Origin: Ovis canadensis
Lineage: Eukaryota > Chordata > Mammalia > Artiodactyla > Bovidae
Direction of reading: 5' to 3'
Assembly: GCF_042477335.2 (NCBI RefSeq)
Contig: NC_091251.1
Coordinates: 36,162,501-36,226,500 of the forward strand
Length of the DNA: 64,000 bases
Program-made: the position numbers and the translations under genes
Shown: piece by piece, positions 62,517 to 62,878 of the stretch
Layout: every line of letters begins with the position of its first letter
Numbering within the stretch: the first letter of the stretch is position 1
The notes under the pieces: generated by a model
Database searches by the model: none
What the model saw: the letters and a program-made list of their open reading frames with translations, nothing else
What the model was told of the DNA's origin: nothing

Positions 62517-62878
62517 GTGCACCTGAGCACCCACATATGGAATTACAGCCACCCCGAAGGGGGCAGCACCTGTCCCTGGAGGGCCTAGGGCCACTCCTCT
62601 CTGGTGACCAGGTCAACCTGCATGGCTTCTTGTCCCAGGGCATTCCTTCCCAGCTGGTGAGGGTGGGCCCGCTGTCTCTTTGGAACCAGGACACAACCTT
62701 CCTGTCAAGTGACCTGCCCACCAAGCCCCAAACTTCCAGTTCCATCTCCATCTCCACTACCACTTCAGGCCCTGCACGACCAGTGCTGTTTGGCCCAGGA
62801 ACTGAGGCCGGGAAGTTGCCTCTAGCAGAGGGATCCAGAGAAGCCAAGGAGAAGAGAGCTCCCCTTTTCCTCTTTTGA
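62517..62878 (+). pseudogene. Vestigial (or alternative) SALL-family terminal exon in the SALL2 3' UTR
   Basis: Directly after CTCTCCCTTCCCTTTGGCAG (pyrimidine tract plus AG), codons from 62517 read VHLSTHIWN, matching the VHMGTHMWN that ends the last finger of SALL1. One nucleotide is missing between 62543 and 62555. From 62549 the homology continues in another frame (PPRRGQHLSLEG, FLSQGI, LSLWNQ) against SALL1 [11 protein letters not shown] and SFWNQ. This second frame stays open to TGA at 62876-62878. It therefore looks like the ancestral last SALL exon, stranded when SALL2 gained an earlier stop and lost the finger pair before it. Comparison sequence is from memory. Confidence 0.75.

Follow-up and report, generated by a model that had tools for sequence, protein, structure and literature searches.

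The window, by which we mean the whole stretch of 64,000 nucleotides analysed here (C7:36162501-36226500), carries the SALL2 gene of Ovis canadensis on its forward strand. Its exons, the last zinc-finger pair, the canonical C-terminal tail and the features behind the stop codon are listed in Table 1, where the name E1 for the first exon is taken from PMC7937961. SALL2 is present only once in the assembly, so a second allele is not available for comparison. When the DNA of 61900-62950 was searched against the genome (2.97 Gb, 42 contigs) for processed copies, it matched only its own place. Three paralogues lie in the same genome, which we take to be SALL1 (C14, partly masked), SALL3 (C23) and SALL4 (C13), the names being assigned from sequence.

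Table 1. Features of the SALL2 locus, in positions of the window
Feature	Position	Strand	Remarks
SALL2 exon E1, coding part	50355..50427	+	last codon split G/GT, phase 1; exon end read from sequence
SALL2 exon E1A, coding part	58811..58877	+	ends with first base of next codon, phase 1; translation across E1A-exon 2 junction
SALL2 large exon 2 to canonical stop TGA (62198-62200)	59262..62200	+	Pfam C2H2 fingers; whole-genome self match; SALL1/3/4 paralogues
Last SALL2 zinc-finger pair CEVC...LAHHQ	61910..62071	+	place fits ZF4; 5' end approximate
Canonical C-terminal tail, starts VQPFAP	62072..62197	+	similar to linker before ZF5 in SALL3 and SALL4
Possible decayed remnant of second ZF5 finger and donor-like GAA/GTGAGA	62199..62245	+	pairwise alignment; suggestive only
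Polypyrimidine tract and acceptor CTCTCCCTTCCCTTTGGCAG	62497..62516	+	score 9.78
Frame-0 reading VHLSTHIWNYSHPEGGSTCPWRA, then TAG	62517..62588	+	counterpart of ZF5-completing part in SALL3
Shifted-frame terminal exon ORF APEHPHMELQPPRRGQHLSLEG...LSLWNQ...LFLF	62519..62878	+	TGA 62876-62878; phase-1 entry from acceptor at 62517
AATAAA, first one past the exon	63319..63324	+	pattern only
ATTAAA, further signal	63843	+	pattern only

Splice sites were scored with consensus matrices. On this scale the acceptor before 62517 is the best of the interval 62201-62620, and its score of 9.78 is matched by 0.15% of the AGs in the window. Directly after CTCTCCCTTCCCTTTGGCAG, the exon starts with GTGCACCTGAGC. 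Frame 0, which includes VHLSTHIWN, closes after 23 codons. The frame two bases after 62517 reads APEHPHMELQPPRRGQHLSLEGLGPLLSGDQVNLHGFLSQGIPSQLVRVGPLSLWNQ, contains PPRRGQHLSLEG...LSLWNQ and, as one of its peptides, GQHLSLEGLGPLLSGDQVNLHGFLSQGIPSQLVR, and is open to the TGA at its end. Open length by itself is weak evidence here, as the opposite strand holds a 215-codon frame (62332-62979). In the canonical SALL2 mRNA, translation ends at 62198-62200 and the DNA of the terminal exon is 3' UTR.

The 215-codon minus-strand frame is probably a shadow. Its stretch opposite 62517-62878 scores negative for coding in all three frames.

A profile was built from the terminal exons of SALL3, SALL4 and, in part, SALL1 and run, with filters off, against all six-frame stretches of at least 12 aa in the window (n=3241). 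The frame 62381-62875 ranked first with an E-value of 3.3e-6, and the sole other row had an E-value of 0.36. In shuffle tests the first half of the shifted frame was equalled by 0/5000 shuffles against SALL3 and by 0/5000 against SALL4, and the frame-0 peptide (23 aa) by 0/5000 and 228/5000, respectively. The second half, after WNQ, was not significant alone (2295/5000 shuffles as high, sum over three paralogues). When the genome was searched with the unjoined 109-aa tail alone, the SALL3 exon came up with no better than E 0.39, behind an unrelated-looking place on C3 that is full of stops (E 0.018). A 58-aa peptide joined manually over the frame step matched the SALL3 exon at E 2.5e-4. Because of the profile, shuffle and genome-search scores, together with an acceptor at the exact exon start, we accept the homology; 62517-62878 is almost certainly the orthologue of the SALL terminal coding exon. 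Pfam held no family for the SALL2 tail and none for the SALL3 terminal exon, and the SALL2 tail had no match among solved structures.

The terminal exons of SALL1, SALL3 and SALL4 share with that of SALL2 the exon start and the motifs VHxxTHxWN, RRGxxLS-E, LLxGD and WNQ, all in the same order. As in its paralogues, the acceptor stands directly before VHxxTHxWN and the RRGxxLSxE...WNQ block follows in order. In SALL3, NLK/GTGAG marks the start of a 1060-base intron, behind which the terminal exon runs in a single frame; SALL4 resembles it, with NLK/GTGAG and then VHYMTHGANNSSARRGRKLAIEN...VVWNQ. In both, the exon is entered in phase 0 inside ZF5, whereas the SALL2 exon appears to lack ZF5 before it, has a one-base step after WN and is open only in phase 1, so that no phase-0 frame runs from acceptor to stop. 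Relative to SALL3, SALL2 is one base short between WN and RRG. The EISVIQNGG and FTRFxEDxKEI blocks of the family are missing from the SALL2 exon.

An earlier note, made from the letters of this DNA, had described this exon. The acceptor, VHLSTHIWN and, one frame over, RRGQHLSLEG, FLSQGI and LSLWNQ are all present in the letters as it said, and the second frame, which it gave as open for about 110 codons, runs to 62878. Its placement of the exon in the SALL2 3' UTR agrees with the canonical stop upstream at 62198-62200. The homology that it proposed to the SALL terminal exons is borne out by the profile and shuffle scores, and its one-base step by the comparison with SALL3.

SALL2 from other mammals was sought in genome contig, viral contig, plasmid and phage collections, and none was found. 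The SALL2 protein gave 592 pattern matches in the genome contig and 600 in the viral contig collection, and the SALL2 tail gave 130 in the genome contig collection; none of these was confirmed. The DNA of 61000-64000 had no match among plasmids, nor had that of 60000-64000 among phages.

The loss of the last finger pair of SALL2 has been described before. In passages of PMC5892016, ZF5 is lost in human and murine Sall2, ZF4 is absent from Sall2 of every vertebrate examined there, and the remaining C-terminal pair is called non-homologous to both ZF4 and ZF5. PMC8699250 describes ZFC4 for SALL1, SALL3 and SALL4 and not for SALL2, which is without the finger pair by which SALL4 reads AT-rich DNA. 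The locus analysed here appears to share this loss. The passages on ZF5 (ZFC4) loss in the two papers do not mention a retained terminal exon.

The canonical tail (62072-62197) resembles the linker that precedes ZF5. Its score was reached by 16/5000 shuffles against SALL3, 75/5000 against SALL4 and 7/5000 for the sum, and the resemblance lies in VPG... and in SPGLSP, SPGLAP and SPGMTP. The canonical stop therefore sits about where ZF5 should start. By this resemblance the last SALL2 pair would occupy the position of ZF4, which is at odds with the non-homology view published in PMC5892016. The sequence of the pair itself does not discriminate between ZF4 and ZF5, with scores of 84 to SALL3 ZF4, 95 to SALL3 ZF5 and 82 to SALL4 ZF5. 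Among solved structures it matches many C2H2 proteins, including SALL3 and SALL4, which does not settle its ancestry.

Directly behind the stop there may be a decayed remnant of ZF5, which we regard as suggestive only. The score of 62199-62241 against the second ZF5 finger of SALL3 was reached by 24/2000 shuffles and 20/2272 background pieces. This signal weakened when the whole interval was allowed (70/2000 shuffles), and SALL4 gave no support (813/2000 shuffles as high). An nhmmer profile of ZF5 found nothing in 62072-62516, including at 62199-62245. Within its family of developmental regulators SALL2 stands apart, and this locus shows how the loss of its ZF5 pair came about. A stop that arises upstream and bypasses a last exon is a familiar sort of evolutionary event, and we count the exon described here among such cases, as an ancestral exon that was bypassed and has perhaps been taken into use again.

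E1 and E1A both end in phase 1, and joining either of them to 62517 opens the shifted frame. Within exon 2, phase-1 donors at 59579, 59597 and 61142 also reach it. Since these donors are in phase 1, the coding-like frame is the one that phase-1 splicing would use; agreement of a donor's phase with the open frame is expected by chance one time in three. The predicted products are of 142 aa for E1A joined to the terminal exon and of 248, 254 and 769 aa for the three donors in exon 2. The donor at 61142 (GAG/GTGAGC) is the best consensus donor of exon 2 and lies inside the ZF3-pair linker (61140-61150); placed in a conserved finger linker, it may be unused. The phase-0 donor CAG/GTACAG at 62071 is weak, with 9.5% of the GTs in the window scoring as high, and splicing from it would run into the closed frame, with a product of 982 aa.

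An alternative phase-0 rescue, through an acceptor at 62549, was rejected as weak, since 38% of the AGs in the window score as high.

The shifted frame has a codon score of 0.139 bits per codon, and the other five frames are negative. Open frames of at least 100 codons in 1-58700 reached this value in 0/58 cases. The score was trained on SALL genes and is no general coding test: it gives -0.158 and -0.212 for two intact receptor-like genes found in the window. When SALL1/3/4 alone served for training, the shifted frame scored 0.046. Living SALL2 exon 2, in 86 windows, has a mean of 0.001 (sd 0.106) under the same training, with 28% of the windows as high, and 0.046 was reached by none of 162 windows of matched GC content drawn from beyond the SALL2 exons. 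Compared with SALL3, the shifted frame differs at 21/16/27 of 44 codons by codon position, and exon 2 at 0.47/0.41/0.61 of 844. The pattern of the shifted frame looks like that of exon 2.

We simulated neutral survival by evolving pieces of exon 2 and counting those that stayed open with a score as high (n=10,320). At an indel/substitution ratio of 0.10, survivors were 2.5% at 0.05 substitutions per site, 0.27% at 0.10, and 1/10,320 at both 0.15 and 0.20. At a ratio of 0.05, they were 4.5% and 0.9% at the two lower distances, 16/10,320 at 0.15 and 3/10,320 at 0.20. The observed frame does not fit neutral decay at 0.1-0.2 substitutions per site, and neutral decay is not rejected at 0.05 or less. 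We assume about 0.2 substitutions per site of neutral change on this branch since the loss of ZF5. A one-base step younger than about 0.05 substitutions per site would be compatible with the simulated figures. In the first 27 bases of the exon there are just 4 differences from SALL3, and none falls on a second codon position of frame 0. This conservation would fit a recent step or an assembly slip as well as dual constraint.

We lean towards the explanation that the orthologous terminal exon persists in the role of an alternative last exon, with entry in phase 1 after the loss of ZF5. On the evidence of sequence its homology is near certain, and its present use is what we infer. A functional-looking acceptor, donors in phase with it and coding-like composition in the frame that splicing reaches are all found here, as in a living last exon. 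Against a living exon stands the second half of the tail, with no significant similarity to the paralogues (2295/5000). In SALL3 and SALL4 the terminal exon is entered in phase 0 from a donor within the second ZF5 finger, which it completes. In this SALL2 the ZF5 pair and its donor appear to be gone, the large exon stops about where ZF5 should begin, the first 27 bases of the exon no longer serve to end a finger, and the remainder is read one frame over. The strong acceptor at 62517 would be joined to a phase-1 donor, either that of E1 or E1A, skipping exon 2, or one of 59579, 59597 and 61142. Presumably low-abundance SALL2 transcripts splice to the exon in this way, and their protein products, short or truncated, would end in a SALL-type tail and lack the last fingers. 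Speculatively, such forms might compete with the long protein without binding DNA themselves. More tentatively, the exon may have been re-phased and not lost: a one-base deletion would have made a phase-0, finger-completing exon into a phase-1 exon, so that its tail was joined to the N-terminal part of SALL2 as a finger-less isoform under selection in mammals.

The earlier note read the exon as a fossil, out of coding use since the loss of ZF5 and retained within the 3' UTR, its one-base loss being a sign of decay. Much of that account holds. The pair is missing from SALL2, as printed for human and mouse (PMC5892016, PMC8699250), and the earlier stop in the large exon that it supposed is placed at about the start of ZF5 by the linker similarity (7/5000 shuffles); the outline in which an upstream stop bypassed the terminal exon after ZF5 loss is well supported. 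The stop of the canonical frame at 62198-62200, the closure of the old phase-0 frame after 23 codons, the weak donor at 62071 (9.5% of window GTs as high) and a second half of the tail without recognisable similarity all agree with a dead exon. Had the exon been freed only recently, a distance of at most 0.05 per site would leave 2.5 to 4.5% of copies surviving with the score. Yet the open frame, its codon make-up and its codon-position pattern show no decay. Survival to the roughly 0.2 per site that we assumed above would be improbable if the loss was a single event common to human, mouse and this species. The loss in the first two is that of PMC5892016. Because the frame is coding-like, the acceptor excellent and the entry in phase 1 matched, we doubt that the exon is dead; this is the less likely half of the proposal and, taken as a whole, a rather unlikely account, and a re-phased alternative last exon explains more. 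The one-base step is real, while its reading as a lesion may have to give way to a change of entry phase.

It is less probable still that the step arose recently in this lineage, or is an assembly slip in CCCC/GGGGG, and that the exon is used, or was until lately, in phase 0 from CAG/GTACAG at 62071. The first 27 bases, with 4 differences from SALL3, are better conserved than one would expect of an idle frame, and the step adjoins short homopolymers. However, the 62071 donor scores poorly, homopolymer runs of 4 and 5 bases are short to have caused such an error, and the single copy of the locus in the assembly offers no second allele to compare. Conservation owed to a role of the 3' UTR as RNA, and not to a peptide, would suit the place of the sequence in the main mRNA, but the signal is codon-shaped and lies in one frame, which makes such a role very improbable. 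Chance resemblance might be invoked for motifs that are short and for a frame that had to be changed; it is refuted to a good approximation by the profile (E 3.3e-6), the shuffles (0/5000) and the colinearity with the acceptor.

A phase-1 terminal exon of SALL2 may have a counterpart in human annotation. The text of PMC7937961, which uses Ensembl v98, gives human SALL2 three alternative exons for E2 and "a novel exon E3". It also describes a 198-aa short_E1A form that is without C2H2 fingers and mostly cytoplasmic, and reports that, apart from E1, E1A and short_E1A, the isoforms are weakly expressed. A third exon behind exon 2, and a short protein made from the E1A promoter and devoid of fingers, are what the two species would have in common. 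E3 stands in that text without coordinates and without a link to the SALL1/3/4 terminal exons; on its wording, human E3 is a likely but unproven counterpart of 62517-62878. The donors of this locus give products of 142, 204, 248, 254 and 769 aa, and no donor of SALL2 in this species matches the 198 aa of short_E1A. The literature searched, which was covered in part, yielded no paper describing a SALL2 terminal exon, and the exon seems to be unremarked there. If the proposal is true, a selected, re-phased terminal exon would explain the origin of a SALL2 isoform that is so far described without one, and the SALL2 "3' UTR" may hold coding sequence.

Outside this locus, C3:127846416-127846685 holds SALL-like finger sequence interrupted by four in-frame stops, which may be a processed pseudogene derived from a SALL gene. 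Elsewhere in the window the forward strand carries two open frames that are long and intact, at 998-2044 and 10981-11940; by their MAYDRYLAIC motif we take them to resemble olfactory receptor genes.
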